From the NCBI GenBank assembly GCA_002737275.1, contig NSIG01000058.1, positions 1 to 42,301 on the forward strand: 42,301 bases of DNA, in the 5' to 3' direction. The translations under genes were made by a program, and so were the position numbers. This stretch comes from Opitutia bacterium (GTDB lineage: Bacteria > Verrucomicrobiota > Verrucomicrobiia > Opitutales > Opitutaceae). Below the pieces are notes generated by a model that was given only the letters and a program-made list of their open reading frames with translations, was not told the DNA's origin and made no database searches. The first letter of the stretch is position 1. The number at the start of each line of letters is the position of its first letter. Shown here one piece after another: positions 25,129 to 42,025 of this stretch.

Positions 25129-26646
25129 CTAATGTTTGGAATACTCGAAGCGATCTATGACTTTTCCGGTGTCGTAGAGCAGAGTTTTCGGATAATACGC
25201 CTCATCAAACGGGCGTGGCCGCGTCGGCCCGCCCCACGTTGACCCTGGCCGGCTTCCCCAATGCCGGCGCGCCCAATGCGGCCCCCGCAAGGGATCCCGG
25301 GTGCGGTTCATCCAAGCCAGTAATTCATCGAGTAATCGTTCCCGTTCAGGGGTGAGCGCCGGATCGTTGACCCGGTTCTGGAGCTCGAGGGGATCGGCCG
25401 CCAAATCGTAGAATTCATCGGTATCGAGCAGGTTGATGACCAGTTTGTAGCGTCCGTCAAAGACACTGCGCATCGGCGCGAACGCGCCAAAACCGTCGTG
25501 GTCAATCTCAAACCGATTGAATTCCATGAAGACAAAATCATTGGTACGCTGGGCCGGATTACGCATCTGGGGCAGTAGCGATCGTCCTTGGAGGATCGAC
25601 GGAGCGGCCATCCCGAAGTAGTCGAGCAGCGTTGGCACCAGATCGATGTGCGATACCGGAGCCTTGGAAACTGAGCCCGCGGGTGACATGCCGGGCCATC
25701 GGACGATGAACGGGATGCGGACAATTTCCTCATACATGCACGGACCTTTGCCAAAGAGACCGTGACCGCCGAACATGTCCCCGTGGTCGCTGGTATGGAT
25801 GACGAGGGCCCCGGGTGTTTCGGCATCGATTGCCTCCATCACCCGACCGACCTGGGAGTCGCAAAAACTGTTGCACGCAAAATGGTGCGGGTGGCGCAAG
25901 TGCGCCTTGCCTCCGATGCGAGCCAATTGGGTCTGATGGGACTCGGTATGCCGGGCCCATTCTTTTTGTGAGAGCGGTTTGTCCGAGAGTGAATCGTCCG
26001 CATTGGGCACGGGAAAGAGGAACTCGTCGAATGCGCTGGCGTAGGGTTCCGGCGCAATGAACGGGTGGTGCGGTTCGTCAATCGACACGACTAAGAGGAA
26101 ATCCCGATCCCGGTGGGCGCGGATGAATTCCCTCGCCCGTTCGGCTATCCGCCAGGCATGGGTGAATTCGGCGGTGATCCCGTGCGCGGCCACGTCTTTG
26201 GGATCCAACACGCGTCGAGAAAGCGCACGCGCTTCGTCATTGGGCAATGACTCGAGGTAGTTTCGTCCATCCAGCCAATAGGCCGGGTCCCAGCCGGGAG
26301 GACAGCGTCCGTCCCCAAAGTAGTCGCTGCCGTCGAGATGCCATTTACCGATGTAACCGGTCGCAAATCCGGCGTCGCTCAGGCGCTGACCGAGGGTGGG
26401 CAGATCGAGGTGGGGCGCCATGTCGTTTCCGAGGACCCCGTTGCTGTGCGGATAAAGCCCCGTAAACAGAGCCGAGCGCGCGGGCCCACAGACCGGCGAG
26501 CACGTGTAGGCACCGTTGAACCGCACACCCTCGGACGCGAGTCGATCGATGTTCGGAGTGCCCAACGCCAACTCCGGGCGGTAGCAACCGACGCAATTGG
26601 CACCCTGAGTGTCGATGAGGAAGAGAACGGTCTGTCGTGTAGCCAT
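25129..26646 (-). CDS. Sulfatase (S1 family), predicted cytoplasmic
   Basis: A 505-residue type I sulfatase that would hydrolyse a sulfate ester from a sugar. The Cys that matures to formylglycine is Cys53 in CGPAR (53-57, the C-x-P-x-R signature), followed by SALFTG. N-terminal metal site residues are in FLIDTQGANCVGCY (a DTQ variant rather than DDQ). The second metal-binding segment is HTSDHGDMFGGHG, and YIGKWH is present. There is no signal peptide, unlike the other two sulfatases here, so it likely acts on imported oligo- or monosaccharides. It is the last gene of the minus-strand arm, 102 bp after the AraC gene. The exact substrate cannot be read from sequence. Confidence 0.95.
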   Translation of the reverse strand: MATRQTVLFLIDTQGANCVGCYRPELALGTPNIDRLASEGVRFNGAYTCSPVCGPARSALFTGLYPHSNGVLGNDMAPHLDLPTLGQRLSDAGFATGYIGKWHLDGSDYFGDGRCPPGWDPAYWLDGRNYLESLPNDEARALSRRVLDPKDVAAHGITAEFTHAWRIAERAREFIRAHRDRDFLLVVSIDEPHHPFIAPEPYASAFDEFLFPVPNADDSLSDKPLSQKEWARHTESHQTQLARIGGKAHLRHPHHFACNSFCDSQVGRVMEAIDAETPGALVIHTSDHGDMFGGHGLFGKGPCMYEEIVRIPFIVRWPGMSPAGSVSKAPVSHIDLVPTLLDYFGMAAPSILQGRSLLPQMRNPAQRTNDFVFMEFNRFEIDHDGFGAFAPMRSVFDGRYKLVINLLDTDEFYDLAADPLELQNRVNDPALTPERERLLDELLAWMNRTRDPLRGPHWARRHWGSRPGSTWGGPTRPRPFDEAYYPKTLLYDTGKVIDRFEYSKH

Positions 26647-26748: not shown

Positions 26749-27831
26749 TCACTCATGGCGTGGGTCCGGTTCGCCCGCTGCGGCGGACGTTTTGCGGAAC
26801 GACTGGCGATACATGGTCGGAGTCCGTTGCGTGATGCGCTTGAACAAGCGGCAGAAATAAAACGGGTCCTCAAAGCCGACTAGGTGGGCGATGCTTTCCA
26901 CCTTGGCGTCGGTTTCGGCGAGGTATTCACACGCCTTGGCTATCTTCTGTCGGTTGAAAAAAATTCGCGGGCTTTGACCAGTGTGCTTGCGGAACTGTTG
27001 GGTGAAATAGGCGTGGGACATACCGGTGCCGGCCGCCAACTCGTGGATACTCACGTGCGCGCGGAGGTTTTTGCGCATCATTGTGAGCGTGCGCTCGATC
27101 CGAGTCGCCGTTGATTCCTGCACGGCCGGGCGCCGGCACACTTGTCCGAAGAGATCGCCGAGCAGTTGATGCATCGCCGAGGAGGCCTGCACGAGATCCT
27201 TGTAGGCTTGGCCTGCGTGGTAGATCCCGAGAATTTTTTCGAAGGTCTCGACGAAACGGAGATCCGATTGAACTGCGATACAGGTGTTTTTTCCTCCCGT
27301 GGTCAGAACATCGTAATATTGCTGGGCGACCGTGCCGTTGAAATGAATCCAATAGTAGGACCAAGGATCGCCCGGATCGGCTGCGTAGGCGTGAAATTCA
27401 AACGGCCGCAGGAGCGCGATGGTGCCTCGTGTGATCCGGTGCGTGCCTTGGCTGAGATCGAGCGTGCCCACTCCATCGAGGCAGTAGAGCAGCGTAAAGG
27501 CCCAATCCCCATTTGCTCGGGAAACTTTTTGTCCCTTGGCCCGGGGGAAGTAGCCGAGACGGCAAGGCAGCAAGGCTGCCGTCAGCGCCTGCCGGTTGGC
27601 CGATTCCACGACTTTGGTGGGAAGCTTGAAAATCCGTTCACCCGGAAAGTCTTCACGACCGAGCACCGAGACGAGCTTGCGGCCATTGAAACTGAACACG
27701 CGCGTCTTGTCGTCCGCCATGTAGCCCTCCAGCGAGAAAGCCTTCGGATCCAAGGGCGGCAACACGCGGTTGCGCGGTTTGGCCGGCGCGGCGCTAGGAC
27801 GTTTGCCTTCGGTTGGCTTGCTCATGAACAT
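26749..27831 (-). CDS. AraC-family transcriptional regulator
   Basis: A 360-residue regulator. An N-terminal cupin-type sensor domain (AraC_binding) covers about 80-200, with LGYFPRAKGQKV, then RITRGTIALLRPFEFHAYAADP and WSYYWIHFNG. The C-terminal pair of helix-turn-helix motifs is SIHELAAGTGMSHAYFTQQF and VESIAHLVGFEDPFYFCRLF. AraC proteins with this build bind two direct half-sites and sense a sugar. The start ATG at 27831 lies 5 bp after the symporter stop (27825 is an alternative), so the two are cotranscribed. The longer open frame to 28185 lies inside the symporter gene. It is the prime candidate for binding the three 33-bp elements at 32511, 32977 and 33104. Confidence 0.95.
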   Translation of the reverse strand: MFMSKPTEGKRPSAAPAKPRNRVLPPLDPKAFSLEGYMADDKTRVFSFNGRKLVSVLGREDFPGERIFKLPTKVVESANRQALTAALLPCRLGYFPRAKGQKVSRANGDWAFTLLYCLDGVGTLDLSQGTHRITRGTIALLRPFEFHAYAADPGDPWSYYWIHFNGTVAQQYYDVLTTGGKNTCIAVQSDLRFVETFEKILGIYHAGQAYKDLVQASSAMHQLLGDLFGQVCRRPAVQESTATRIERTLTMMRKNLRAHVSIHELAAGTGMSHAYFTQQFRKHTGQSPRIFFNRQKIAKACEYLAETDAKVESIAHLVGFEDPFYFCRLFKRITQRTPTMYRQSFRKTSAAAGEPDPRHE

Positions 27832-27836
27832 CGGTC

Positions 27837-29492
27837 TTAGCCGGAATGGGCGAGACGCCACAGGGAAAAATAGAGCACGACCGCGAGCACGGAGACCACC
27901 ACCGAGGCCACGCGCAGGCCACGCCAGGGCGTGAGATCCACCGCGACGTCGGACGGCAGGCCGTCCCGCTTCGCGCTTGCGGCGGCGGGCGCAGCGGGGG
28001 CGAACCAACCGACGATCAACATGAATCCGCAGAGCAACAGGGTGTTGAGGGCGGCGAGATGGAGCCAGTGGATGTGCAACGAGGAAACGTCGAAGCGCCC
28101 CAACCCGAGGAAACCAACGCCCCACAGGCAGTTCAGCAAAATCGACGTGAATACGCCGAGGATCATCGACACATTGGCCGCCCAAGCAGGCACCCGTCGG
28201 CTGAGCATGCCGGTGACGACCACGGCGAGCAGGGGCAGCTTAAAGGCGGACATCACCTGCTTCATCATCGTGAAAATTCCCTCGGAAGAGCTGCCCAGCA
28301 GGTTGGTGGTGAAAACGGCGACGAACATGATCACGACGCAGAAGAGTTTGCCCGCTCGAACCATCTCGCGATCCGAAGCCCCCGGCCGGAGCCAGCCTCG
28401 ATAGAGATCCAGACTGAACATGGTCGAAACACTGTGCAGTCCACCGTTAAAAGAGCTGATCACGGAGCCGAGGAAAACCGCGGCGAACAAACCCACCAGA
28501 TAGGGCGGCAGCACGGCGTCAACCAGCAGCGAATAAGCGAGGTCGCCGTTGCCAATCGCGGCGGCGCCGAACATTTCCGCCGCCATGATTCCAGGGATCA
28601 CGAGGAAGAACGGTCCAAGCAGCTTGAGGCCGGCGGTGGCGAGAATTCCCTTTTGAGCCTCGGCGAAGCTCTTCGCGCCGAATGAGCGCTGCACGATCAT
28701 CTGGTTGGTGCACCAGTAGAAGAGATTGATGAAAAGCATACCCGTGAAGAGCGTGTCGAACGGCACGTTTGAGCCTGGCCCACCTACCGGATCGATCTTC
28801 GCAGCTTGATGCTGCAACATGCGGTTCATACCCGCGAGGAAGTCGCCATCACCCAACTTAAAAAGCGCGAGCACCGGGATGAGGAGACCGCACACGAGCA
28901 GGCCGGCACCGTAGAGCGTGTCGGAAAGCGCCACGGCCTTCATGCCACCAAAGAGCACGTAGCAGGTGCCGATAATCCCGATGCTCCACGCCATCAGTCG
29001 AAAAGAGGCGCCCTCGGAAATACCGAGTTGGGTGTGCACATGGAAGATCGTGCTCATCGCCAGACCACCGGAATAGAGGACAAACGGCAGGATGTTGAGC
29101 GCGATCGTGATGATAAACACGATGCCCATGATCCGACGCGCCGTCGCGTCGAAGCGCTGTTCGAGGAACTGGGGCACCGTGGTGATATTGCCGGACCAGT
29201 AGCGGGGCAGAAAATACCACGCCATCGCGATCAATGCGAACACTGGCACGACCTCCCACGCCATCACCACCGCGCCATGGATGGACGCCGCCCCGTTCAG
29301 ACCGATGAGCTGCTCGGTGGAAAGGTTGGTCAGCAACAGCGCCCCGGCCACTTGGATCCACGGTAATTTTCGGCCGGCGAGGAAGTAGGTTTGCGCGTCG
29401 CTATTGTCCTCGCGGCGGGTCTGCCACCACGAAACCAACGCCACCACGACGGTGAAAAAAAGAAATGAGCCGATGGCGAGCGGAAGATTCAT
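27837..29492 (-). CDS. Sodium/solute symporter (SSS family)
   Basis: A 551-residue inner-membrane carrier with about 13-14 hydrophobic helices. Features of the SSS (SLC5-like) family include an early SWWQTRREDNSDAQTYFLAGR segment followed by LPWIQVAGALLLTNLSTEQLIGLNG, and later GLFAAVFLGSVISSFNGGLHSVSTMFSLDLY, the family's conserved helix. Members import sugars, sialic acid, carboxylates or amino acids with Na+. Here, between a TonB receptor and an AraC regulator, it likely takes up the monosaccharide or oligosaccharide product. It lies 66 bp after the receptor stop. Confidence 0.94.
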   Translation of the reverse strand: MNLPLAIGSFLFFTVVVALVSWWQTRREDNSDAQTYFLAGRKLPWIQVAGALLLTNLSTEQLIGLNGAASIHGAVVMAWEVVPVFALIAMAWYFLPRYWSGNITTVPQFLEQRFDATARRIMGIVFIITIALNILPFVLYSGGLAMSTIFHVHTQLGISEGASFRLMAWSIGIIGTCYVLFGGMKAVALSDTLYGAGLLVCGLLIPVLALFKLGDGDFLAGMNRMLQHQAAKIDPVGGPGSNVPFDTLFTGMLFINLFYWCTNQMIVQRSFGAKSFAEAQKGILATAGLKLLGPFFLVIPGIMAAEMFGAAAIGNGDLAYSLLVDAVLPPYLVGLFAAVFLGSVISSFNGGLHSVSTMFSLDLYRGWLRPGASDREMVRAGKLFCVVIMFVAVFTTNLLGSSSEGIFTMMKQVMSAFKLPLLAVVVTGMLSRRVPAWAANVSMILGVFTSILLNCLWGVGFLGLGRFDVSSLHIHWLHLAALNTLLLCGFMLIVGWFAPAAPAAASAKRDGLPSDVAVDLTPWRGLRVASVVVSVLAVVLYFSLWRLAHSG

Positions 29493-29558: not shown

Positions 29559-32441
29559 TCAGAAACTGAACTTGGTCGTGATCATCCACTCAAGGGGAGG
29601 ATTGAACCGATAGGCCGTCAACACGCCGTCCCGAGCGGTGTTGATCCGAATGAAGGCATCATTGTTGAGCGCATTATTAATGTTCGTCTGCAGAGACCAG
29701 GCGACGGATTTACCCATGATCTTAAGCTTGCGGCGGTAGGCCGCGTTGAGGTCGAGAAACACTTGCTCCGATCCATAAGAAACGGTGCTCGTCACGGCTC
29801 CGCCCGGAGTTCCGGTGGCACGATAACCATTGATCGGCTTGCCGGTGTAGCGCACGCCGCCGCCGACGGTGATGCCCTTCAAGGCTCCTCGGGAGAACTC
29901 ATAATTCGATACGAGATTCAGCTTGTGCTCCATCTGGCCGAGCGCGGGCCGCCCATTGGCGAGCGTAAAGTCGGTGAACGTCCGGACATCGAGCGCCGCG
30001 AGCTGCGTGGCGATGGTGCCGACGCCGGTGCTCAGGGGCAGTGCCGCATTAGCCGCCCAAGTCGGGCGCCAAAAGGCGATGTAAGCAAAATCCTCTTGCC
30101 CGATGTTGGTTTGAGCGGACTTCGATTGGCTGTAGTTGAGAAATACCCGCCAATACGCCGTGGGGTTGGCCGTGAGTTCCACCTCGTAGCCTTGGGTGCG
30201 GTTGTCAAAGGTCCTACCGGTGCCGCTTTGCACGGTGCCGCTCGGAACTTTTCCGGCCAAAGCGAGGGCGCTCCAGATCGGATTGATCGACGAAGCGATG
30301 TTTCCGAAATCGAAATCCCGACCGGCGCTGGTTTGAAAATACTGGGCCGTGACAAACAGCCGGTTCTTGAACAGATCCAGTTTAAATCCGATGTCCTGGC
30401 TCTTGCCTTTCGGGGTGGGCGGACGAGAGAACGCGGCCACGTCTGAATTGGGGACATTCAGCCGTCCCCCAAAACTGGGCAGGCCGCTGTTGCCGGCTTG
30501 GCTGTAGGTCAGACCGAGCCAATCGGTGGCCTGCAGCACTCCGCTGAAGGAAACACTGGTGGCGACCGTATTAATCGGCGTCTGGCTGCGCACAGGGCCC
30601 GGAATGCCGGAAGCAAAGCCGGCCACAGGCGTTAGCACCGACGTGGAGGCGTAGTCGTTGCGATCATCACGGCTGGTGCCAATGATGGTCTTGATCCGAT
30701 TTTTCCAGAACGAGCTTTGCAGCATTCCGATCATCGTCTGGCTGTCGAAACTGTTGAGGATCCCATTGACGTTAAACGGCACCAAAGCGCTGGTGTAAGT
30801 TCTGCCGCTCAAGGTTTCCGTGATCGTGCCCAAGGCCTGCCGGTTGTAAGGCGCCATCACGATGTTGCGGCTTGGGCCAGCGAGGTCGACATAGGTGCGG
30901 CGGAAGATGCGATTGTTGGCGTTGATGGCGCTGGTTAAGTTCGGCGCGTTGGGTGAGATGATTTGTTCGCGGACCGCGATTTGAGACAGCTTCGTGAAAT
31001 CATATTGATAGACCCCGGCCAACGTGTGTTTGCCCCAGCGGCCAAAGTCTCTCGCGTAGGAAAGCACCGTTCGCACTGAATCGCTACGAGTGTCACTAAA
31101 TCCGATCTGAGGCAGGCCCTCGACGTAGGTTTTGCCGACATTGGGGTTAACGGCGCCGGAAGGCAGGGTCGGGTTGGTGTCGACGATGATGGCCCGGGTG
31201 TTAGCGGTCTGTGGGTCCGAGTTCTCCGTATGGCTGTCGGTGCGCATGCCGGCGATTTCCAGATTAAGGTTGGGGGTAAACGAGTGGGTCAGATAGGCCC
31301 CGAGACGGGCGTATTTCGTGTCGAGACCAAAACCCGGCCCATAAACCGACGTCTCCTTGGGCAACACGTTGAAATTAGACATGGGAACATTTTCGCCATC
31401 AATCGCCGTCCAAAGCGTGCTCCGGGTTTTGTTGACCCAATTGGTCACGGCGCCCGAGGCCGTGTCCAAAACCAAGTAGGGCGTGTTGTTGGCCGCGACC
31501 CCCGAGATTTGCTGCGCGGCATTGATGGCGCCGACATTGCGGCCGGCTGCCGCCCAGCGGGTGTAGGCATCATAGGCCGTGATGGAACGGATGGTCCGCT
31601 TATTGAGGTCCGCCTTCTCCAGATCGAAATTGAACTCGGTTTTCTGCCCCACGCGCCATTTCCCGGTGAGGTAGGCACGTTCCGAGTCGCTAAACTCATA
31701 ATTGCGCCAACTGCCGCGTTGTTCCTTCACTGCAGCAACCCGGAGCGAAATGTGTTCGCCGATGGCCTGGTTGTAGTCGGCCTCTTCGCGTAGGCCCCCC
31801 TCCGAACGACCCTGCACGGCGGCCGAGAAAGCGTTCTTGCCCAGCATCGCCCGCTTGTTCGTCACATTGATGAGACCTCCGGGTGAACCGATGCCGAACA
31901 GAATCGAATTCGGGCCGCGGGCTTGGTCAATACGCTCCGTGCTAAAGGTGTCGGCCGGAAAATCGGATTTGAAAAAATTCACCGCGATGGTGCCGCCTGA
32001 AAGACCCCTCATGCGCAGTTGTCGCGTGCTGTTACTCGCAAGAAAGTTCTGCCCCGGTCCGGCATTCTCACCGAAGTCATACTCGGTGCTGAGCATGTAG
32101 CGCGCAAGATCGTCGGTGTTCGTGATGCCGACATCGTTGAGAAATTCTGCGGTGAAGGTGGTGGTGGGTGCGGCGACGTCCTTGAGATTTGTCCTCAGGC
32201 GACTGCCACCCAAGGTCGATTGCGCTTGGTAGCCACGATCCAACGTCGACGTGACGGTGAACGGAGTGAGCTCCACCACTTCCGCAGCGGTGACATTTTT
32301 GGGATCATCCGTCGGCGAGGCCGGAGCGGAGGAATTCGCGACCGCTTGGGCGCAGGCGACGGAGGCTAACCCAGGCAAACAAAGCAGAAGCGCTAACGGG
32401 AACCGACGCGGGATGACAGGTATCGAGGAACAAATCAGCAT
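29559..32441 (-). CDS. TonB-dependent outer-membrane receptor (minus arm)
   Basis: A 960-residue outer-membrane transporter. A signal peptide (FPLALLLCLPGLASVACAQA) is followed by the N-terminal motif ELTPFTVTSTLDRGYQAQST, characteristic of Opitutaceae-type receptors. The plug (RQLRMRGLSGGTIAVNFFKS, RGPNSILFGIGSPGGLINV) precedes a barrel ending in Phe (ITTKFSF). I chose ATG 32441 although the frame is open to 32531, because the longer version would begin upstream of the proposed promoter (-10 at 32489-32484) and include the operator. No STN domain, so it is not of the FecA signalling type. It leads the minus arm: receptor - symporter - AraC - sulfatase. Substrate inferred to be a sulfated glycan fragment from context. 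Confidence 0.95.
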   Translation of the reverse strand: MLICSSIPVIPRRFPLALLLCLPGLASVACAQAVANSSAPASPTDDPKNVTAAEVVELTPFTVTSTLDRGYQAQSTLGGSRLRTNLKDVAAPTTTFTAEFLNDVGITNTDDLARYMLSTEYDFGENAGPGQNFLASNSTRQLRMRGLSGGTIAVNFFKSDFPADTFSTERIDQARGPNSILFGIGSPGGLINVTNKRAMLGKNAFSAAVQGRSEGGLREEADYNQAIGEHISLRVAAVKEQRGSWRNYEFSDSERAYLTGKWRVGQKTEFNFDLEKADLNKRTIRSITAYDAYTRWAAAGRNVGAINAAQQISGVAANNTPYLVLDTASGAVTNWVNKTRSTLWTAIDGENVPMSNFNVLPKETSVYGPGFGLDTKYARLGAYLTHSFTPNLNLEIAGMRTDSHTENSDPQTANTRAIIVDTNPTLPSGAVNPNVGKTYVEGLPQIGFSDTRSDSVRTVLSYARDFGRWGKHTLAGVYQYDFTKLSQIAVREQIISPNAPNLTSAINANNRIFRRTYVDLAGPSRNIVMAPYNRQALGTITETLSGRTYTSALVPFNVNGILNSFDSQTMIGMLQSSFWKNRIKTIIGTSRDDRNDYASTSVLTPVAGFASGIPGPVRSQTPINTVATSVSFSGVLQATDWLGLTYSQAGNSGLPSFGGRLNVPNSDVAAFSRPPTPKGKSQDIGFKLDLFKNRLFVTAQYFQTSAGRDFDFGNIASSINPIWSALALAGKVPSGTVQSGTGRTFDNRTQGYEVELTANPTAYWRVFLNYSQSKSAQTNIGQEDFAYIAFWRPTWAANAALPLSTGVGTIATQLAALDVRTFTDFTLANGRPALGQMEHKLNLVSNYEFSRGALKGITVGGGVRYTGKPINGYRATGTPGGAVTSTVSYGSEQVFLDLNAAYRRKLKIMGKSVAWSLQTNINNALNNDAFIRINTARDGVLTAYRFNPPLEWMITTKFSF

Positions 32442-32483: not shown

Positions 32484-32543
32484 AAGATACGCACTGACCA
32501 ACGCATCGGACATAGATGAATTTCGCATCAATCTAGACTTTTT
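32484..32543 (-). promoter_or_regulatory. Promoter with AraC-type direct-repeat site (copy a)
   Basis: Read on the minus strand: AAAAAGTCTAG (32543-32533), 15 nt, then ATCTATG (32517-32511), then 21 nt, then TATCTT (32489-32484) as -10. The two half-sites GTCTA and ATCTA start 21 bp apart. The second would overlap a -35 placed 17 bp ahead of the -10. A start of transcription would fall about 35 bases before the receptor ATG at 32441. Over 42 positions the sequence is about three-quarters identical to copy c. Confidence 0.72.
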
Positions 32544-32550
32544 GAACTAT

Positions 32551-32863
32551 GCCCGGCGGTCTCGGTGTTGGCCGTGTAGACAAGGAGACTCGCGCTGTCC
32601 GTGGCGTTCACATCCTTCATAAAATCGGAGGTAACGACCGAAATTGAGTTGGCGATATCCCTCAGGTCAGTGCGGATGCGCGTGCCGGCGAGCGAAGAGG
32701 TGGCGGCATAACCGCGGTCGGCTTCGGCGGTCGTGACGAAAGGCGAAAGCTCGAGCACCTTACCGTCCTTGGCGGGCAGACCAACAGGGGGCACGGCTTG
32801 GGCATGGAGTTGCGGCGCAAGGAGGGCGACCACAAGGGCGGCAAGCAGGGGGGGGATTTCATG
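32551..32863 (-). pseudogene. Truncated TonB-dependent receptor, N-terminus only
   Basis: The minus-strand ATG at 32863 starts a signal peptide that reads correctly only if one base is added to a run of eight C (32845-32854 region): MKSPP, then LLAALVVALLAPQLHAQA. After the shift, the open frame carries VLELSPFVTTAEADRGYAATSSLAG, RIRTDLRDIANSISVVTSDFMKDV and LLVYTANTETAG. This is the start of the same receptor type as the neighbour at 29559. Homology stops near 32551, where the sequence passes directly into regulatory copy a. Everything after the first plug residues is missing, so it cannot make a receptor. Its own promoter (copy b) looks intact. Confidence 0.8.
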
Positions 32864-32949
32864 AGTTTGGAGGGAACGCGAGGCACGGGTTAGGGAAATA
32901 CAGCGGAGTAAGAATTGCGCGGCAGGGGTGGCCGAGGTTTGTTGTGAGC

Positions 32950-33009
32950 ACGATAATTTCTCCGCTCTCCCGCGCCCATAAACATTCCGCGTGTATTACT
33001 AGACTTTTT
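32950..33009 (-). promoter_or_regulatory. Promoter with AraC-type direct-repeat site (copy b)
   Basis: Minus strand: AAAAAGTCTAG (33009-32999), 15 nt, GTTTATG (32983-32977), 21 nt, then TATCGT (32955-32950) as -10. Same 33-bp geometry as copies a and c. It points at the truncated receptor (ATG 32863) and, because of the deletion, its transcript could continue into the intact receptor operon at 32441. Confidence 0.7.
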
Positions 33010-33014
33010 GTAAA

Positions 33015-33030
33015 GAGCGCTTCGGCGCTC
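33015..33030. repeat. Hairpin with TTCG loop
   Basis: GAGCGC-TTCG-GCGCTC is a perfect 6-bp stem with a stable TTCG tetraloop. It lies between regulatory copies b and c, that is, between the two divergent operons. It has no T-run. It could act as a weak transcription barrier; nothing shows a specific role. Confidence 0.45.
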
Positions 33031-33103
33031 ACCCATTCCGGCGTCACCGGAGCGATCCCATGGCCAAGGAATTTTCGGCAAGAAGCAGTTCCGAGATAGA
33101 CTA

Positions 33104-33162
33104 AAAAAGTCTAGATTTAGGCCGAATTCGTCTATGTCGAATTCGCAGGTATCGCGTATGGT
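33104..33162 (+). promoter_or_regulatory. Promoter with AraC-type direct-repeat site (copy c)
   Basis: Plus strand: AAAAAGTCTAG (33104-33114), 15 nt, GTCTATG (33130-33136), 20 nt, then TATGGT (33157-33162) as -10. The two GTCTA half-sites begin exactly 21 bp apart. The first half also sits in a palindrome, AGACTAAAAAAGTCT (33098-33112). It points at the receptor gene at 33365, leaving a leader of about 195 bases. Confidence 0.72.
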
Positions 33163-33364: not shown

Positions 33365-36304
33365 ATGAATCATTACTCCGCTCACTCCCTGCGCTGCCTT
33401 CGACCGCTCTTTTTCTACCTCTCTCTTTTCTGCCTTCTATCCCTTTCAGCTGCCCCCGCCGCCACCCTCACCGGCAACGTCTCTAACGTCGCTACCCGCA
33501 ATCTCCTTGAGGGCGCACGGGTCGAAGTCCCCGCCCTCGGTCTCACGGCTCTGACCGATAATACGGGCCGCTACGTGCTCGCGGCTATCCCCGCGGGCAC
33601 GCACGAAGTCGTCGTGACCTACGTCGGTCTCGATTCGGCCCGCACTACCGTCATCGTCGCCGACTCGGCCAGCACCACGCGTGACTTCAATCTGACCAGC
33701 GTCGTCTACAAACTCGACGCCTTCAAAGTCACCGGTGAGCGCGAGGGCGGTGCCGCCGCGATCACCGCCCAGCGCAACGCCGAGAACGTGAAGAACATTG
33801 TCGCGATGGATTCGTTCGGAAACCTGCCGAACATGAATGCCGCCGAGGTTGCCATCCGCCTGCCCGGCGTCGCCGGTAATCTCTCGGACGAAAACCTCGT
33901 CGACGGATTCACGATCCGTGGCATTGGCCCGGGCCTCAACACCGTGACTCTCGATGGCTCGCCGCTCACCAGCCAAGGCGCCCTCAACCGCGCCACGAAC
34001 ATGAACAACCTCACGGGTTCCATGTTCGATCAAATGGAACTCACGAAGGGCCACATGCCCGACAAAGAGGCCGGCTCCATCGGCGGCACCATCAATCTCA
34101 AGAGCCGTTCCCCTCTTTCCATGAGCGAGCGCCACCGTCTCACCTACAGCGCCGGTGTGCGCTACGCCCCGCCGTTCACCCAGCAAACTCCGACGCGCGA
34201 AAAACATCGCGCGCATCCGCTCTTCAACGTCGGCTGGCAAGAGCTCTTCGACGTCTTCGGTAGCGAGCGCAACTTGGGCGTGTCGCTCAATGTGTTCTAC
34301 TCCGAAAACGCCGTCGGCGGTTTCCGGACCACGCGCGATTTCGAAAACACCACCACCCAGCCCGCCTACCTCTGGGACTACCGCACTTGGGACAACTACA
34401 ACAACCGCAAGCAGGCCAGCGTCAGCCTCAAAGCCGACTACCGTCTCTCGCCGTCCACCAAGCTCTCAATCAACACCGTCGCGAGCGACGCCCTAGAGAC
34501 GTTTCGCCGCCAATACGAGACGCGGGCCTTCACCACGCAACAGGTCGGCACCACCGGCACGGCCGGCATTCTGCCCGGCTACACCGATCAAATCACGCAA
34601 GTCCGTGCCGCCGCCGGCTCGACTATCGACCAGACGTCCACCGGCCCGGGCAATTTCGCCAATCGCATGCGCCGCCTCGACCTCGGCGCCGAACACGTTT
34701 TCGGCGCCCTCCAGGTCGATTACAACGCCATCTACACCCAGTCCAATATCAACGGCGGCGGCGGCGGGCGCGGCGGGATCTTGGTGAACCGCATTACCGC
34801 GGTCGGCTGGCGGCTTGATCGCACGGGCTCTGATCTCCATCCGCGTTTCACGCAAACCGAAGGCCCCGATTTCACCAATCCCGCCAACTACCGCCCCACT
34901 ACCTACAATAACTCGATCCTCCAGAACGACGATCAGATCAAAGAAGTCCGCGCCAACCTCCGTTACACGCTGCCGGTTTCCTTCCCGCTCTCGCTCAAAT
35001 CCGGCGCGGTCTGGCGCGAGCACTACGCGAGCGCCGAGAGCGTCGCGCGCCGTTGGAACTACGCCGGCCTCACCGCCCTCCCCGCCGATCCGTCGATCAT
35101 CACCTTCGATTCCGTGAAAACCGGCCGCCGCATTCCGCAGTGGGAGCCGGTCCAGTTTTTCGCCGACCGCCAGCCGGTCACACCCGCGCTCTGGCGCGAG
35201 GACCTCTACTTTTCCGAGCAAAACAAATACACCGCCAACCGCGCCGTCACCGAAACCATCACGGCCGGCTACGCGATGGCGTCCGGCCGCGTGGGCCGCA
35301 CTGGCCTCGTCGCCGGCGTGCGCACCGAGCGCACCGAAACATCGAGCTGGGGCTGGGTGCGCACGCGCACCGGCAGCACCGTGGCCCAGCAGACCGCCGA
35401 TCCCGTCGGCTCCGCCACCCGCGACTATGCCGGCACTCGGCGCGATCTTAGCGGGAGCTACACGAAGTCCTTTCCCAGCGCCCATCTCACGCACGATCTC
35501 ACCTCCAACCTCAAGGCCCGGCTGAGTTGGTCCACCAGCTTCGGCCGGCCACCGTTGAACAATGCCCTCCCCAACGAAACCATCTCCGAGACGAACCAAA
35601 CCCTCACGGTCAACAACCCGAGCCTGCTCCCGCAGACCGCCGCCACGTGGGACGCCACGCTTGAGTATTACTTCGAACCCGTCGGCACGCTTTCCATCGG
35701 CTGGTTCAACAAAACCATCGAAGACTACATCGTCACCGGCACCAACGCGGGCACGATCGGCACTGGCTCCGACAACGGCTACAACGGCGAATACCCCGGC
35801 TTCACGCGCCTGACTTCGTCGAACGCCGGCACGGCCAAGGTCCAGGGTTGGGAGTTCAACTATCAGCAACAGTTCACGTTTCTCCCCGGCCTGTTCAAGG
35901 GCTTCGGGGCCTCGGCCAACTACACGCTGATCAGCACGAGCGGAGATTTTGGCGGCACGACCTCACGCAGCACCAACGAGGTCCCCGGTTTCATTCCGCG
36001 CACCGGCAACGCCACGCTCTCTTGGCGCTACCGCAAATTTAGCACGCGCATCCTCTACAATTTCGCCGGCAGCCACATCACGGCCTTCACCGCCGCGACG
36101 CCCGGCCGGAATCTTTACCGTTTCGACTACGCTTCCGTGAACGCGGGCATGGCGTATCAGATTCGTCCCGATCTCCAGCTCACACTCGACGCCGCCAACC
36201 TCACCAACGAGCCCCAGGCCTTCTACCGCAGCGTCCGCTCCCAGATGCAGAACACCATTATCAACGGCACGACGCTCACCTTCGGTGTCAACGGACGCTT
36301 CTAG
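33365..36304 (+). CDS. TonB-dependent outer-membrane receptor (plus arm)
   Basis: A 979-residue outer-membrane transporter. A signal peptide (LFFYLSLFCLLSLSAAPAA) is followed by a carboxypeptidase-regulatory-like domain at about 33-118, containing LTGNVSNVATRNLLEGARV and DNTGRYVLAAIPAG. The plug (ENLVDGFTIRGIGPGLNTVTLDG, then KEAGSIGGTINLKSRS) leads into a long barrel ending in Phe (TFGVNGRF). The layout is that of the large TonB receptors used for complex carbohydrates, distinct from the minus-arm receptor, which lacks the extra beta domain. It is followed after 13 bp by a sulfatase gene and heads a five-gene plus-strand arm. Confidence 0.95.
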   Translation: MNHYSAHSLRCLRPLFFYLSLFCLLSLSAAPAATLTGNVSNVATRNLLEGARVEVPALGLTALTDNTGRYVLAAIPAGTHEVVVTYVGLDSARTTVIVADSASTTRDFNLTSVVYKLDAFKVTGEREGGAAAITAQRNAENVKNIVAMDSFGNLPNMNAAEVAIRLPGVAGNLSDENLVDGFTIRGIGPGLNTVTLDGSPLTSQGALNRATNMNNLTGSMFDQMELTKGHMPDKEAGSIGGTINLKSRSPLSMSERHRLTYSAGVRYAPPFTQQTPTREKHRAHPLFNVGWQELFDVFGSERNLGVSLNVFYSENAVGGFRTTRDFENTTTQPAYLWDYRTWDNYNNRKQASVSLKADYRLSPSTKLSINTVASDALETFRRQYETRAFTTQQVGTTGTAGILPGYTDQITQVRAAAGSTIDQTSTGPGNFANRMRRLDLGAEHVFGALQVDYNAIYTQSNINGGGGGRGGILVNRITAVGWRLDRTGSDLHPRFTQTEGPDFTNPANYRPTTYNNSILQNDDQIKEVRANLRYTLPVSFPLSLKSGAVWREHYASAESVARRWNYAGLTALPADPSIITFDSVKTGRRIPQWEPVQFFADRQPVTPALWREDLYFSEQNKYTANRAVTETITAGYAMASGRVGRTGLVAGVRTERTETSSWGWVRTRTGSTVAQQTADPVGSATRDYAGTRRDLSGSYTKSFPSAHLTHDLTSNLKARLSWSTSFGRPPLNNALPNETISETNQTLTVNNPSLLPQTAATWDATLEYYFEPVGTLSIGWFNKTIEDYIVTGTNAGTIGTGSDNGYNGEYPGFTRLTSSNAGTAKVQGWEFNYQQQFTFLPGLFKGFGASANYTLISTSGDFGGTTSRSTNEVPGFIPRTGNATLSWRYRKFSTRILYNFAGSHITAFTAATPGRNLYRFDYASVNAGMAYQIRPDLQLTLDAANLTNEPQAFYRSVRSQMQNTIINGTTLTFGVNGRF

Positions 36305-36317
36305 CGGCACTCATGGC

Positions 36318-37823
36318 ATGACGAAGAGACTCCAGTCGCGCCGCACTCATCCCGCGCTCGACTGCACCGCCGCCAGAGGTCTCGGCATAAAGACGATCTT
36401 GCTCCTACTCGCCGCCCTATTACTGGCCCCGTTGGTTCGGCTCGTCGCCGCCGAGGCGAAACCGAACGTCCTGCTTATCCTCTCCGACGATCATAGCTAC
36501 CCGCACGTCGGCTGTTACGGGAACAAGGATATCATGACGCCGAACCTCGACCGGTTCGCCGCCGAGGGCATGCGCTTCGACCGTGCCTATGTGACCAGCC
36601 CGCAATGCGTGCCGTCGCGCGCGAGCATCTTCACCGGGCGCTCGCCGGTGGCCATCGCGATGTCGCGCTTCTCTTCGCCCCTGCCGCGCGAGATCAAGAC
36701 ATATCCCGAGGCGTTGCGGGCGGCCGGCTGGCTCACCGGGGTCGCGGGGCGGATGTATCACATGGACGGCGCGAACGTGAACGTGGCGGAATCGCAGGCC
36801 GTTTTTGATCAACATAAACTTGTTACGTTTCCCGACCGCCTCGACTACGTGAAGACGGGCAGCGGCAGTGAGGTCGGCCTCGCGCAGTTTCGTGAATTCC
36901 TCGATCTAAAGCCCGCCGCGAAGCCGTTCTTCCTCCAACTCTGTTCCAATGATCCGCACCGCCCCCTGAATACCCAGGGCCCGGTGAAACATGATCCGAC
37001 GAAGATCACACTTCCCGCGCACTACCCGGACACTCCGCTGGTGCGCGAGGACTTTGCGCGCTACTATGACGAGATCGCGCACTTCGATGTGTTCTTCGGC
37101 GAAGTCATGGCGGAGCTGGAAAAGCGCGGTCTCGCCGCGAACACCCTCGTCGCCTTTATGGGGGACAACGGCGCGTCTCAATTCCGCGGCAAAGGCACAC
37201 TTTACGAGTTTGGCATCCGCGTTCCGTTGCTCGTGCGCTGGCCCGGCAAGGTGCAGCCGGGCTCGGCGTCTTCGGAATTGATCAGCGGCGAAGACCTAGC
37301 GCCCACGTTCCTTCACGCCGCCGGTCTTTCCGCGCCGCCGGAGATGACCGGGAAAAGTTTCGCAAAGATCCTGCGAGGTGAGCCGTTCGCCGGACGGCAG
37401 TTCGTCTTCTCTGAGCGCGGCGCGCATGGCACCAATCTGCCGGGCAACAGCGCGGATTTTGACCTCGGACGCGTCGTCGTAAGCAAGACGCACAAGCTCA
37501 TCTACAATGCGCTCGGCGCGCTGCCGTATTGGCCCGTCGATTTCGCGAGCACCGCTTTTTGGCAGGAACTCGTGCAACTGCACGAAGCAGGGAAACTCGC
37601 CGCCAAATTCACCAAGATCTATTTCGCCACGCCGCGCCCCAGGTTCGAACTCTACGATCTCGAACAGGACCCCGGGGAATTCAACAACCTCGCGGGCACA
37701 AATGAGGCGACCAACTTGGAACGCGAACTTAAGGCTGCGCTTCAGGAGTGGATGATTCTCGAGCGCGATTTTTTGCCCTTGCCCGTGCCGCCTTCGAGAG
37801 GCGGAAACCGCGGTGGAAAATAG
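36318..37823 (+). CDS. Exported sulfatase (S1 family)
   Basis: A 501-residue type I sulfatase with an N-terminal hydrophobic export segment (TILLLLAALLLAPLVRLVAA). The metal site PNVLLILSDDHSYPHVGCYG and the maturation signature CVPSR (Cys97-Arg101, followed by ASIFTG) are intact. A second metal-site segment reads FMGDNGASQFRGKGTLYEFG. The organisation (RMYHMDGANVN, later DLEQDPGEFNNLAG) resembles arylsulfatase/N-sulfoglucosamine sulfohydrolase-like enzymes, but the sugar and sulfate position cannot be read. The first in-frame ATG after the receptor stop is 36318. A Cys-type sulfatase needs formylglycine maturation by an enzyme not encoded here. Confidence 0.94.
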   Translation: MTKRLQSRRTHPALDCTAARGLGIKTILLLLAALLLAPLVRLVAAEAKPNVLLILSDDHSYPHVGCYGNKDIMTPNLDRFAAEGMRFDRAYVTSPQCVPSRASIFTGRSPVAIAMSRFSSPLPREIKTYPEALRAAGWLTGVAGRMYHMDGANVNVAESQAVFDQHKLVTFPDRLDYVKTGSGSEVGLAQFREFLDLKPAAKPFFLQLCSNDPHRPLNTQGPVKHDPTKITLPAHYPDTPLVREDFARYYDEIAHFDVFFGEVMAELEKRGLAANTLVAFMGDNGASQFRGKGTLYEFGIRVPLLVRWPGKVQPGSASSELISGEDLAPTFLHAAGLSAPPEMTGKSFAKILRGEPFAGRQFVFSERGAHGTNLPGNSADFDLGRVVVSKTHKLIYNALGALPYWPVDFASTAFWQELVQLHEAGKLAAKFTKIYFATPRPRFELYDLEQDPGEFNNLAGTNEATNLERELKAALQEWMILERDFLPLPVPPSRGGNRGGK

Positions 37824-37917
37824 CCCATTGCTCACGTCTAAAACCCATCACGACACGGATCTTCGTCGCGCCACTGGATCCAAGACCCAGTTGATCGCTC
37901 CACTCAAAAAACAAAAA

Positions 37918-39345
37918 ATGAAGACCACGACCCCGTGCTCCCGTCGGAATTTCATCAAAAAATCCGCCGCCTCAGCCTTAGGATTTACCTTTCTTCCGGC
38001 TTATCTCACCGCCGCCCGCGCGGCCAACAATCCGACCCTACCGCCCAGCCGGCGAATCAATCTGGGCTGTATCGGCGTGGGAGGTCGGGCCGCCGGGGCT
38101 ATCCCGAGCCTGACCAGCGATGGTCACGCGGTGCCGGTGGCCTTTTGCGATGTCGATTTTGAAGGTTCGAGAAAGATCGAGGGTAATCTAAAAACTTGGC
38201 CCGACGTGCCCCGCTTTCAGGACTTCCGGGTAATGCTGGACAAGATGGGGCAGGATATCGACGCGGTGAGCGTCGTGATCCCCGACCACACCCATTTTGT
38301 GGCGGCCATCCACGCCATGTCGCTGGGCAAACACGTTTATGTCGAGAAACCGCTAACGCATACGTTTGCGGAAGCCGAAATGCTCATGCGGGCCGAAAAG
38401 AAATTCAAGGTGGTGACGCAAATGGGAAACCAGGGTCATACCTCCTCCGGTGCCGCGCAATTCAAGCAAATGGTGGCGGCCGGGCTAACCGCCGATGTCT
38501 ACAAGATCGACGCGTGGAAGGAGCCTTCCCTTTGGTTCATGCAGCCCAAAAAACGCATTTCCGCTTTTCCGCCTGAGGAGAAGCTGCCGGAAACGTTTTC
38601 CGATTGGAACGTATGGTGCGGGCCTCAGCCCGTGGCGCCGTTTAACTCGCTCTATCACCCTTTTGGTTGGCGCGCCTTTCACCAATACGGCTGCGGCATG
38701 TTCGGAGATTGGGGCTGCCACATTATTGATTTTGTCCACCACTACTTAAACTTGGGCCTGCCCACGGCGATTTCACCGGTCCGTTTGGATGACTACAACA
38801 AAGTCATTTTTCCACTGACCTCCCATATTCGGTTTCAGTTTCCGGAAAGAGGCCCCGGCTCTCCGGCCGTGGAGCTGATGTGGAAAGCGGGGGCCGATTG
38901 CCATCCCGCGTTCGACGAGAAATTTGGCGATCTGCAGGAGGACAAATCGATCAAACTGCCCGCGTTGGGTGAGGCCGGAACTCTCTTACACCGAAAACAA
39001 GGCGACTATGTGATCATGCGCGGCCACCATGGCGAAGCGTCGCGGATTCATCCGCGGAAAGTCATGCTGGAAAAATGGGACGCCGTCAAAGCGCCGAAGC
39101 CGGAATACACGCATGGCACCAGTTTCATTCAGGCCTGCATGGGCAAAACCACGACCACCTCACCTTTCAGTGTGAGCGGCGAACTGACTCAGGTGCTGAA
39201 CCTGGGCATGATCGCGGAATACTTGAACGTAGAACTGCAATTCGATCCGAAGACCAAACGGTTCGTCGGCAACGATGAGGCGAACTTTCTCCTCGCCGGC
39301 GCGAAACCACGCACTGAGTGGGCCCATTACTACACGCTGGCATAA
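37918..39345 (+). CDS. Tat-exported Gfo/Idh/MocA-family oxidoreductase
   Basis: A 475-residue NAD(P)-dependent sugar dehydrogenase-like enzyme. The N-terminus carries a Tat signal (SRRNFIKKSAASALGFTF), indicating export of the folded, cofactor-loaded protein. The nucleotide-binding loop is LGCIGVGGRAAGA (about 49-61). The conserved EKPL lies at 143-146 (KHVYVEKPLTH). The C-terminal substrate domain contains FGDWGCHIIDFVHH. I chose ATG 37918 because it directly precedes the Tat motif; the upstream frame overlaps the sulfatase end. Members near DUF1080 proteins oxidise the C3 hydroxyl of glycosides. Here it likely works on a desulfated sugar in the periplasm; the order of steps is inference. 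Confidence 0.93.
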   Translation: MKTTTPCSRRNFIKKSAASALGFTFLPAYLTAARAANNPTLPPSRRINLGCIGVGGRAAGAIPSLTSDGHAVPVAFCDVDFEGSRKIEGNLKTWPDVPRFQDFRVMLDKMGQDIDAVSVVIPDHTHFVAAIHAMSLGKHVYVEKPLTHTFAEAEMLMRAEKKFKVVTQMGNQGHTSSGAAQFKQMVAAGLTADVYKIDAWKEPSLWFMQPKKRISAFPPEEKLPETFSDWNVWCGPQPVAPFNSLYHPFGWRAFHQYGCGMFGDWGCHIIDFVHHYLNLGLPTAISPVRLDDYNKVIFPLTSHIRFQFPERGPGSPAVELMWKAGADCHPAFDEKFGDLQEDKSIKLPALGEAGTLLHRKQGDYVIMRGHHGEASRIHPRKVMLEKWDAVKAPKPEYTHGTSFIQACMGKTTTTSPFSVSGELTQVLNLGMIAEYLNVELQFDPKTKRFVGNDEANFLLAGAKPRTEWAHYYTLA

Positions 39346-39367
39346 CTTCACTCCACGACCTTACCCG

Positions 39368-40417
39368 ATGAATCGAATTCGCCTTGGGGCTCTCGCGATG
39401 GGCTTGTCCCTCGTTTCAATTTTGCACGCGGCTGAATTCGGAGCCATCCCAGACCCTTATATCGGCAACTGGGCTGGAACCTTGAAGTCCAAGACGAAGG
39501 AAGCGCCGGTGCATGCGAGCGTGATCGCTTACAAGAATCGGTATGAGGTCACGCTTCGCACGGAGCCGGACACCAGAAAGCCAGCGATCGTTGTATTCAA
39601 CGGCAAGGTGCAGATGGACCAACTGGTCTTGGAGCAGGATCCTTCCCCGGCGATTCCTGTGCAGCAGAATGAGCGCGCGTCGAATGCCGTGCGGTGGAGC
39701 GGGCAGGCCAAAGGCGATGAGATGACCGGGGCGTTTACGGCCGGCGAAACCAGCGCATTCTCGTTGAAGAGAATCCCCTTCCAGCCGTCACCAACCTTGG
39801 GGGATAAAGCTCCCGTCGGGGCTTTGGTGCTGTTCGATGGAAAGCACATCAACGCATGGGAATCCAAGCAGGCTTCGGCCGACGCCATCCAGTGGATCGT
39901 CACAGAGTCGGGAGCCCTTGAGGTAGTGTCCCAGCGTGCGGGGAAACGGAACAAGCAAGACCTGCGGACGAAGGAAAACTTTGGGGACTATCGTCTGCAT
40001 CTGGAATTCAAGCTCGCCCACAAACCGGAAGCGACCGGTCAGGGCCGATCCAACAGTGGCATCATCCATCTTGGTGTTTATGAGACGCAGATTTTGGACA
40101 GTTTCGGTCTCTACGGCCGGGACAATGAATGCGGCGGCATCTACAAGACCCGCGAACCAGATCGAAACGTCGGCTACCCCGCCGGCCTCTGGCAAACCTA
40201 TGACATCGAGTTCAAGGCCCCTCGCTTTTCAGGCGAGGGCAAGAAGACCGCGGATGCCCGGATGAGTGTCCGCCTCAATGGCGCTCTCATTCACCATGAT
40301 GTCACCGTGCCCAACCCGACCGGCGGCGGGAAAGAAACAGCCCGGGGGCCGATTGTTTTGCAAGACCACGGGAACCCGGTGCAGTTCAGAAATATCTGGG
40401 CGGTTAAACTGGATTGA
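39368..40417 (+). CDS. Exported DUF1080 (3-keto-disaccharide hydrolase family) protein
   Basis: A 349-residue secreted protein with a signal peptide (ALAMGLSLVSILHAA). An N-terminal beta-type domain of unknown role covers about 24-140. The DUF1080/PF06439 jellyroll lies at about 151-349, with VLFDGKHINAWESK, RSNSGIIHLGVYETQILDS and GPIVLQDHGNPVQFRNIWA. Family members cleave glycosides whose sugar has been oxidised at C3. It follows the Gfo/Idh/MocA gene by 22 bp, which is the expected partner. The extra N-terminal domain is longer than in single-domain members. The frame upstream of 39368 lies within the preceding gene. Confidence 0.93.
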   Translation: MNRIRLGALAMGLSLVSILHAAEFGAIPDPYIGNWAGTLKSKTKEAPVHASVIAYKNRYEVTLRTEPDTRKPAIVVFNGKVQMDQLVLEQDPSPAIPVQQNERASNAVRWSGQAKGDEMTGAFTAGETSAFSLKRIPFQPSPTLGDKAPVGALVLFDGKHINAWESKQASADAIQWIVTESGALEVVSQRAGKRNKQDLRTKENFGDYRLHLEFKLAHKPEATGQGRSNSGIIHLGVYETQILDSFGLYGRDNECGGIYKTREPDRNVGYPAGLWQTYDIEFKAPRFSGEGKKTADARMSVRLNGALIHHDVTVPNPTGGGKETARGPIVLQDHGNPVQFRNIWAVKLD

Positions 40418-40447: not shown

Positions 40448-42025
40448 ATGGCCTATAAAATATTTCTATCCCTGCTCATCGCGCTGTTCGGTCTCGGCCC
40501 GAGTCTGAGTGCCGGCTCACCGCCTAATATCCTGATCATTTTGGTGGATGACATGGGCTATTCGGATCTCGGCTGTTATGGAGGCGAGATCCGCACGCCG
40601 AACATCGACCGGCTCGCCGCCAACGGGATGAAGTTTTCTTCGATGTATAACACGGCCAAGTGTTATCCCACCCGGGCAAGCTTGTTGACCGGGGTCTATT
40701 TCCAGCGGACGGACCGTGACTTTTCTCACACCGCCACCTTGGGAGAGGTGCTGCGCCCGGTCGGTTACACCACGCTGTGGTCGGGCAAGCACCATGCGAA
40801 ATTTAATCCCGTGACGCGGGGATTTGACCGCTACTATGGCATGATCGGTGGCGCGCAAAACCACTTCAATCCGGGCAGCAAAGCCGCCCCGGGGCAGCCC
40901 GCGCCGGCGTCCAAAAACGACGGGAACCGCTGGTCGCTCGACGGTGAGGAAGTGAAGGAATTCATTCCGCAGGATCCCAAGTTCTATGACACCGACGCGT
41001 TCACCGATCGCGCACTGACTTGGCTGAACGAATATGAGAAAAAAGATAAACCCTTTCTGCTCTATGTGGCTTACACGGCCCCGCATTGGCCGCTGCAGGC
41101 CTGGCCGGAGGATATCGCCAAATACAAAGGCGTGTATGACGGCGGTTATGAGTCCGTGCGTCAGGCCCGCTACCAACGCCAAATAAATCTGGGGCTCATT
41201 GATCCGAAAACTTCGCCTCTGCCGCCGATGGAATTTGGCAGGAAGAGCCAGAAGAAATGGGACGACCTCTCGTCGGACGAGCGCAGGCAAGAAGCGACGC
41301 GGATGGAGCTTTACGCCGCGATGGTGGATCGCGTGGACCAGAACATCGGTCGGCTGCTGAAGCGATTGGAAGAGCAGGGCAAACTCGACAACACCCTGAT
41401 CCTATTTCTGGCTGATAACGGCGCGTGCGCGGAAACCCCGAAGGTAAATAACGTCGATCCCGATGCACCGATGGGCAGCGTGGCGAGCTATGTGAGCTAC
41501 GGCCAAAACTGGGCATCGGTGGGCAACACGCCTTTGCGCAAGTGGAAGCAAGACAGCTTCGAGGGAGGGATTAACACGCCAATGGTCGCGCACTGGCCGG
41601 CGGGCATCAAGCCGCAGACCGGCTGGAACCGCGAACCCACCCACGTCATCGACATCATGCCCACCGTGCTCACAGTGAGCGGGGCGCACTATCCGGGTGC
41701 CTCGAAGCAAGCCAAGATTCCTCCGCCGGACGGTGTGAGCCTGCTTCCCGCCTTCAAAGGCGAGCCGAACCCACGAACGAAACCTTTGTTCTTTCAGTTC
41801 GGCCGAGGCTCCGCCGTGCGCGATGGGCTGTGGAAGCTCGTGCGCATGGGTGCGAAATGGGAGCTGTATGACTTGGCGGCTGATCGCAACGAGATGCACG
41901 ACCTCGCGGCGAAGCGGCCCGAACTGGTCAAGCAAATGGACGCCGCATGGCTGGCCTGGTGGAAGGAATCCACGGGCAGCGAGTGGACGGGCAAAAACAC
42001 GAAAGAACGCGAACTTGAGGAGTGA
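40448..42025 (+). CDS. Exported sulfatase (arylsulfatase A-like)
   Basis: A 525-residue type I sulfatase with a signal peptide (IFLSLLIALFGLGPSLSAG). The metal site is PNILIILVDDMGYSDLGCYGG, the maturation signature CYPTR is at 72-76 (Cys72) followed by ASLLTG, and LWSGKHHAKF supplies the catalytic Lys/His segment. LFLADNGACAET and RKWKQDSFEGGINTPMVAHWP complete the fold. Its organisation is that of arylsulfatase A-like enzymes. It is unlike the other two sulfatases in this locus, so the three probably remove different sulfate groups. It lies 30 bp after the DUF1080 gene and is the last gene seen in the plus arm. Confidence 0.95.
   Translation: MAYKIFLSLLIALFGLGPSLSAGSPPNILIILVDDMGYSDLGCYGGEIRTPNIDRLAANGMKFSSMYNTAKCYPTRASLLTGVYFQRTDRDFSHTATLGEVLRPVGYTTLWSGKHHAKFNPVTRGFDRYYGMIGGAQNHFNPGSKAAPGQPAPASKNDGNRWSLDGEEVKEFIPQDPKFYDTDAFTDRALTWLNEYEKKDKPFLLYVAYTAPHWPLQAWPEDIAKYKGVYDGGYESVRQARYQRQINLGLIDPKTSPLPPMEFGRKSQKKWDDLSSDERRQEATRMELYAAMVDRVDQNIGRLLKRLEEQGKLDNTLILFLADNGACAETPKVNNVDPDAPMGSVASYVSYGQNWASVGNTPLRKWKQDSFEGGINTPMVAHWPAGIKPQTGWNREPTHVIDIMPTVLTVSGAHYPGASKQAKIPPPDGVSLLPAFKGEPNPRTKPLFFQFGRGSAVRDGLWKLVRMGAKWELYDLAADRNEMHDLAAKRPELVKQMDAAWLAWWKESTGSEWTGKNTKERELEE

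Follow-up and report, generated by a model that had tools for sequence, protein, structure and literature searches.

The window, by which we mean the whole stretch of 42,301 nucleotides analysed here (contig 44 of a 2.65 Mb draft genome that is 68% complete), holds two sets of genes on opposite strands and, between them, three copies of a 33-bp element. Leftward of copy 1 the genes come in the order TBDR1, SSF symporter, AraC regulator and sulfatase, while rightward of copy 3 the order is TBDR2, sulfatase, Gfo/Idh oxidoreductase, 3-keto-disaccharide hydrolase family protein and sulfatase. TBDR1 has matches in six relatives, with 97, 94, 89, 88, 51 and 49% identity. The features are listed below by position.

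25129..26646, minus strand: sulfatase downstream of the AraC gene (Pfam PF00884)
26749..27831, minus strand: AraC-family regulator with an AraC_binding sensor domain and a double helix-turn-helix C-terminal domain (Pfam PF02311, PF12833, PF00165)
27837..29492, minus strand: sodium:solute symporter, SSF (Pfam PF00474)
29559..32441, minus strand: TBDR1, TonB-dependent receptor (Pfam Plug, barely over the cut-off; the frame opens at 32531, with an ATG at 32441)
32484..32489, minus strand: predicted -10 box TATCTT of copy 1 (TANNNT offset test on 59 sites)
32511..32543, minus strand: candidate operator copy 1, exact motif, upstream of the TBDR1-SSF-AraC-sulfatase operon
32546..32854, minus strand: what is left of a third TonB receptor (TBDR-B), truncated after the signal peptide and the beginning of the plug
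32549..32553, no strand: fusion junction of two loci that are separate in the relative G010 (alignments to its contigs C19 and C9)
32950..32955, minus strand: predicted -10 box TATCGT of copy 2 (TANNNT offset test on 59 sites)
32977..33009, minus strand: candidate operator copy 2, exact motif, now before the truncated TonB-receptor remnant
33104..33136, plus strand: candidate operator copy 3, exact motif, upstream of the TBDR2-sulfatase-Gfo/Idh-DUF1080-sulfatase operon
33157..33162, plus strand: predicted -10 box TATGGT of copy 3 (TANNNT offset test; offset 52)
33365..36304, plus strand: TBDR2, TonB-dependent receptor with a carboxypeptidase-regulatory-like N-terminal domain (Pfam PF00593, PF07715, PF13715)
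36285..37823, plus strand: sulfatase (Pfam PF00884)
37813..39345, plus strand: Gfo/Idh/MocA oxidoreductase (Pfam PF01408)
39275..40417, plus strand: 3-keto-disaccharide hydrolase family protein (Pfam PF06439)
40448..42025, plus strand: sulfatase (Pfam PF00884)

A sequence-only reading of this DNA had described the element as two half-sites starting 21 bp apart, followed in the three copies by the hexamers TATCTT, TATCGT and TATGGT. The sequence agrees on each point: the pattern AAAAAGTCTAG-N15-RTYTATG matches exactly at all three positions listed, the half-site spacing is 21 bp and the hexamers lie where they were described. The same pattern was absent from 100 dinucleotide-preserving shuffles, and in the organism's own draft genome its only exact matches are the three copies in the window, with none for the reversed control pattern. 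When up to three mismatches were allowed, the own genome gave 2 further matches against 5 for the reversed control, which is chance level by number, and neither of the two (L004 and L005, with 2 and 3 mismatches) was counted as an additional site. L005 lies inside a frame. L004 (L004:1501-1533, minus strand; G000:C92:19054-19086) is a two-mismatch match some 130 bp ahead of a frame with weak receptor similarity (25%, 5e-8); it may be a weak fourth site, with TANNNT absent at offset 53 ±1. The five closest TBDR1 orthologs (in G010, G005, G009, G008 and G019) are each preceded by two divergent sites that depart from the strict pattern by 0-4 mismatches. Copy 3 has a counterpart before the TBDR2 ortholog of G010, and G005 has one there that differs by one mismatch.

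It had also been claimed that each copy drives a TonB-receptor gene. This fails for copy 2, which fronts a truncated remnant and not a working receptor gene. The remnant lies on the minus strand between copies 1 and 2 and consists of about a hundred codons of the start of a receptor; it shares 43% identity over 67 aa with TBDR1, and 98% over 98 aa with an open receptor frame on contig C9 of G010; a further comparison gave 96% over 103 aa. Its leader is out of frame with its ATG, while in G010 the two are in frame, and since the remnant's own frame is open for 155 codons another start is possible. A run of eight C lies near this ATG. Positions 32553-33500 of the window align to G010:C9 at 87% and positions 32300-32549 to G010:C19 at 88%, which places the junction six to ten bases upstream of copy 1. 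On G010:C9 the counterparts of copies 2 and 3 are both present, and that of the remnant is the open receptor frame, which runs off the contig end. On G010:C19 copy 1 has a divergent partner of its own, before a glycosidase-like gene (Pfam match below the cut-off) and two sulfatases. Because its two parts align to these two contigs, the window appears to join loci that are separate in G010, with the body of the third receptor lost. In G005 the order is AraC, SSF, TBDR1, a divergent pair, a gene without Pfam match, two sulfatases, a one-mismatch site and TBDR2, with no third receptor frame between TBDR1 and TBDR2. The junction and remnant may be the product of a deletion or locus fusion, or of an assembly error. 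A search of the own genome for the glycosidase-like protein that adjoins TBDR1 in G010 gave no match, which proves little given the completeness of the draft. We considered copy 2 as a tandem upstream promoter of TBDR1 and set this aside, because the remnant and the alignment to G010:C9 show it to be the promoter of the lost receptor gene; possibly it reads through into TBDR1. The remnant is a warning that an operator copy need not imply a working target gene.

According to Pfam, the AraC-family protein is the sole DNA-binding regulator among the ten window proteins scanned. Its C-terminal part carries the double helix-turn-helix of the AraC/XylS family (PF12833, 7e-20; PF00165, 3.1e-16), and its profile matches the DNA-binding domains of the solved AraC, MarA, SoxS and Rob structures. 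The N-terminal part matches AraC_binding (PF02311, 7.4e-17), the sensor and dimerisation domain of the carbon-source branch of that family, and dimerisation is thus predicted. We aligned 18 orthologs of the protein. In a collection of named genomes, 16 of the 22 loci with relatives of the regulator belong to Opitutae, Opitutaceae or Verrucomicrobiota metagenome-assembled genomes, several of them, by a reading of the isolate names, from lakes and reservoirs; the other 6 are from Buttiauxella and, at 24-26% identity over 103-120 residues, are not orthologs.

For the anatomy of the site we collected matches with at most two mismatches in 32 loci. There were 71, against a single match (with 2 mismatches) for the reversed pattern on the same loci, and 59 of them, from 19 genomes, were kept; the 12 dropped (2 exact, 1 one-mismatch, 9 two-mismatch) lie in frames or before unlabelled genes, and the -10 position played no part in the choice. 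In these loci, 523,586 bases in total, we counted 43 pairs of halves separated by N15 and none separated by N5-14 or N16-26; this is a local control, as the loci were largely chosen by N15. Two of the 43 exact matches lie inside frames (L114, amid oppositely facing receptor-like genes, and L123). Weighted for similarity, the 59 sites count as about 33 effective sequences. Conservation is seen in the columns RAAAARTCYAG, WTYRTCYATG from position 22, and the T, A and T of TANNNT at positions 53, 54 and 58. The repeat of one half-site by the other is direct, with T/T in columns 5/26 and A/A in columns 8/29 in 97-100% (weighted) of the sites. TANNNT is found at offset 53 ±1 in 55 of the 59 sites (weighted 0.91), exactly at 53 in 43, and the remaining 4 sites have none at the expected place. 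Elsewhere its weighted frequency does not exceed 0.12 (offsets 56-99) or 0.04 (offsets 33-50); offsets 51 and 55, which overlap the box, give 0.16 and 0.11. Since no column between 32 and 52 exceeds 0.45 bits, there is no conserved -35 box, as expected of AraC-type class II promoters, in which the proximal half-site of the activator lies at the -35. The overlap of the second half-site with the -35, as claimed earlier, holds at its edge: if a 17-bp spacer is assumed upstream of the -10 box at 53-58, the -35 place falls at 30-35 and touches the last two bases of the half-site, which ends at 31. As predicted from these sites, the layout is that of class II activator geometry. Examples of AraC-family half-sites are given in PMC4514859.

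The association of element and regulator was examined across genomes with a relaxed motif, AAARTCYAG-N15-RTYYATG. In a set of 57 genomes, the own one included, it occurs in 7, and the same 7, and no others, encode an AraC ortholog (identity 63% or higher); the AraC matches in this set that score next-best have 31-33%. Family-wide, 24 of 252 genomes contain relaxed sites (49 sites in all), while the reversed control gives 3 hits in the 252. The ortholog is present in 18 genomes of the family, and the motif was found in 17 of these 18 versus 7 of the 234 others (Fisher 6e-20, a statistic that ignores kinship; such P values overstate, because related genomes are not independent). The same contrast is seen within genera, where sites occur in holders of the ortholog versus non-holders in 6/6 versus 0/7 genomes of g1, 3/4 versus 1/23 of g7, 4/4 versus 0/5 of g52 and 4/4 versus 0/6 of g8; in g7 alone (27 genomes) the Fisher test gives P 0.005. 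The eighteenth genome with an ortholog, G120, has no exact relaxed site and carries a one-mismatch site before its receptor. Six single motif matches in genomes without the ortholog were considered as a wider regulon and rejected as chance: all are inside predicted frames, and the reversed control itself gives 3 in 252. Receptor and site can part: G018 has a relative of TBDR1 (49%) without a regulator ortholog, and even with 4 mismatches allowed no site is seen at its locus L012. The sequence-only reading had named in advance a motif scattered at random as the outcome that would count against it; in relatives, where genes were taken from simple ORF calls without a gene finder, the sites instead precede receptor, sulfatase and symporter operons.

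Sorted by script according to the next gene, the 59 sites precede receptors (21), sulfatases (11), SSF symporters (4), glycosidase-like genes of three kinds (8 + 8 + 3, labelled by Pfam matches below cut-off or absent) and an unlabelled gene (1), with no gene on the contig in 3 cases. This tally is rough and, given the 12 matches dropped, partly selected; copy 2 was entered under receptor since the next full frame is TBDR1, and the G120 site, which is enclosed by a receptor frame, was entered under a glycosidase-like gene. In relatives, then, many sites precede sulfatase, glycosidase-like or symporter genes and not a receptor, which does not support the idea that each site drives a receptor gene.

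Upstream of the araC operon a same-strand site is found in 17 of the 17 readable loci, that is, those with operon start and araC on one stretch (G012, split over contigs, was excluded), at a distance of 1.8-6.8 kb. In none of the 17 does an opposing frame of at least 200 residues lie wholly between site and araC. In G008 and G009 these sites have two mismatches; in L110 the operon site is at 8239, and a nearer two-mismatch match lies inside the receptor. Because a site heads the araC operon in every readable locus, we infer that positive autoregulation is general.

How could one protein serve both arms of the locus? The earlier proposal, binding of the element by the AraC protein encoded at 26749-27831 and joint control of the two arms through class II-type promoters, is strongly supported at the level of sequence by the co-occurrence of site and regulator, the conservation of the half-sites, the fixed -10 and the placement before receptor, sulfatase and symporter operons. 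Very probably the three elements are operators of this protein, with class II activation of both arms and copy 2 as a leftover. An AraC dimer would occupy the direct half-sites AAAARTCYAG and WTYRTCYATG, which are spaced by 21 bp and lie on one face of the helix, with the promoter-proximal half-site abutting the -35 place of a promoter with a TANNNT -10 box. The bound dimer would recruit RNA polymerase, and we propose that this replaces the -35 contact, because the promoter has no recognisable -35 box. From copy 1 it would activate TBDR1-SSF-AraC-sulfatase, so that the regulator raises its own level, and from copy 3 TBDR2 and its sulfatase operon. Copy 2 would be left over from a receptor gene now reduced to a remnant, its promoter at most reading through into TBDR1. 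Because of the many sulfatase genes the substrate is perhaps a sulfated glycan, and the gene content suggests that the inducer is probably a breakdown product of it.

Most of the sites are arranged divergently: the curated set of 59 includes 24 divergent pairs (48 sites), whose gaps measure 86-100 bp (16 pairs), 129-134 bp (4) or 166-172 bp (4), and copies 2 and 3 of the window are such a pair, 98 bp apart. This raises the question whether the AraC protein binds the sites but mainly represses, or switches by bridging the two members of a pair; E. coli AraC does switch between repression and activation by looping between sites. The three groups of gaps would suit such bridging. However, a proximal half-site that abuts the -35 place of promoters without a -35 box is an activator-dependent layout, and 11 of the 59 sites are unpaired, some merely because the contig ends. 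We therefore regard repression or bridging as unlikely and favour class II activation by the AraC protein. The gap classes, at about 90, 132 and 170 bp, are themselves some 40 bp apart (for example L062:7246-7398, L065:4181-4375 and L121:15734-15967).

A regulator encoded elsewhere might also bind the element, the AraC gene being merely linked to the same operons; as the operons travel as blocks, any gene of a block would co-occur with the motif. Linkage of this kind does not account for sites on contigs other than that of araC, which are seen in G008, G009, G010, G126, G143, G264 and G271, although these drafts are fragmentary. In G264, C4 (172,883 bp) carries a site while araC is found on C49 (174,954 bp); with both contigs longer than 170 kb, the regulator of this genome probably acts in trans. 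Sites of a generally distributed regulator would moreover be expected in the 234 genomes that lack the ortholog, of which only G119 has well-placed ones (three sites, in L108 and L109, with no regulator ortholog found in a draft that is 80% complete). Finally, a 21-bp direct repeat preceding the -35 place is typical of the AraC family. Another regulator is thus very improbable, and the AraC protein of the locus remains the favoured one. That the three copies are footprints of duplicated receptor promoters, kept by shared ancestry with no regulatory selection, is hardly credible: copies 1 and 3 are indeed 79% identical over 47 nt, and each of the three precedes a receptor gene or the remnant, but half-sites and -10 are conserved while most of the spacer and flanks have diverged among the effectively 33 or so sequences, and sites also precede unrelated genes (sulfatases, glycosidase-like genes, SSF).

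The comparison of G010, from the genus of the window, with G145 of genus g52 suggests that regulator and targets moved together, because araC is near-identical across the genera despite an rpoB identity of about 82%: at the DNA level the two genomes share 81.7% in rpoB, 96.3% in araC and 97.0% in SSF (loci L061 on G010:C19 and L119 on G145:C107). Between G145 and its genus mate G143 the values are 87.2% for rpoB and 77.9% for araC. The rpoB gene was found in 13 of the 18 genomes, and 12 were used, a partial copy in G008 being left out. A recent horizontal transfer of the regulon, as a module that crosses genera with its operators, is therefore probable from these sequences. Misbinned contigs are a less likely source of this identity, because not only G145 but also G137 and G139 of g52 hold the form (96, 95 and 94% in protein, respectively). 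An IS605-type OrfB/TnpB-like frame (PF07282, PF01385) lies beside an operator-fronted TonB-receptor gene in L068 (2-595, minus strand; G009:C136); it is a possible agent of locus movement.

At araBAD (araI1-I2), E. coli AraC binds a direct repeat whose half-sites are spaced by about 21 bp, with the promoter-proximal half-site located at the -35. The system described here shares this arrangement, as well as the AraC_binding domain and the C-terminal double helix-turn-helix. The TCCATA part of the E. coli site resembles RTCYATG, while the half-site otherwise differs and no TAGC box is among the conserved columns. The targets here are instead TonB receptors and sulfatases, and looping, a feature of the E. 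coli system, is hypothetical here. Similar in layout is MtlR of Pseudomonas fluorescens, a carbon-source activator, which according to PMC4514859 recognizes at PmtlE direct repeats upstream of the -35 (15-bp blocks at -72 to -58 and -50 to -36, 22 bp apart) with an A-tract beside the first; sequence, targets and phylum are different. PMC5698469 describes a positive regulator of the AraC family; when it is deleted, growth on a sulfated glycan is slower. Sulfatase genes lie in the regulator's cluster, and a TonB receptor encoded elsewhere in the genome is co-induced. That system is from Bacteroidota and co-induces a SusD-like gene, whereas no match to the SusD family was found among the 30 proteins scanned here (window and relatives' loci); the term "binding motif" is absent from its main text. 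PMC5615132 reports many sulfatase genes in the majority of its freshwater Verrucomicrobia drafts, two of which have more than 20 TonB-receptor genes. Within the single literature collection searched, none of the titles listed concerns this motif or AraC operators in Opitutae, and no description of an operator for Verrucomicrobia sulfatase or TonB-receptor genes turned up.

Comparative sequence evidence thus gives good support to an AraC-type regulon of a familiar kind, including its operator and the layout of its promoters. On this evidence a single regulator is connected with a single operator, with a -10 box of known position and, across 18 genomes, with target operons. As a tentative extension, possible but not one we would yet call probable, regulator and operator may form a portable, self-amplifying module of the Opitutae that spreads between genera with its target operons, and unlinked receptor, sulfatase or glycosidase-like operons may join by way of the same two-half-site promoter; the divergent pairs with their three classes of gap might add a further, unrecognised coupling of promoters. 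With the operator defined, membership of the regulon becomes predictable from DNA in uncultured bacteria, and a promoter is available for testing.
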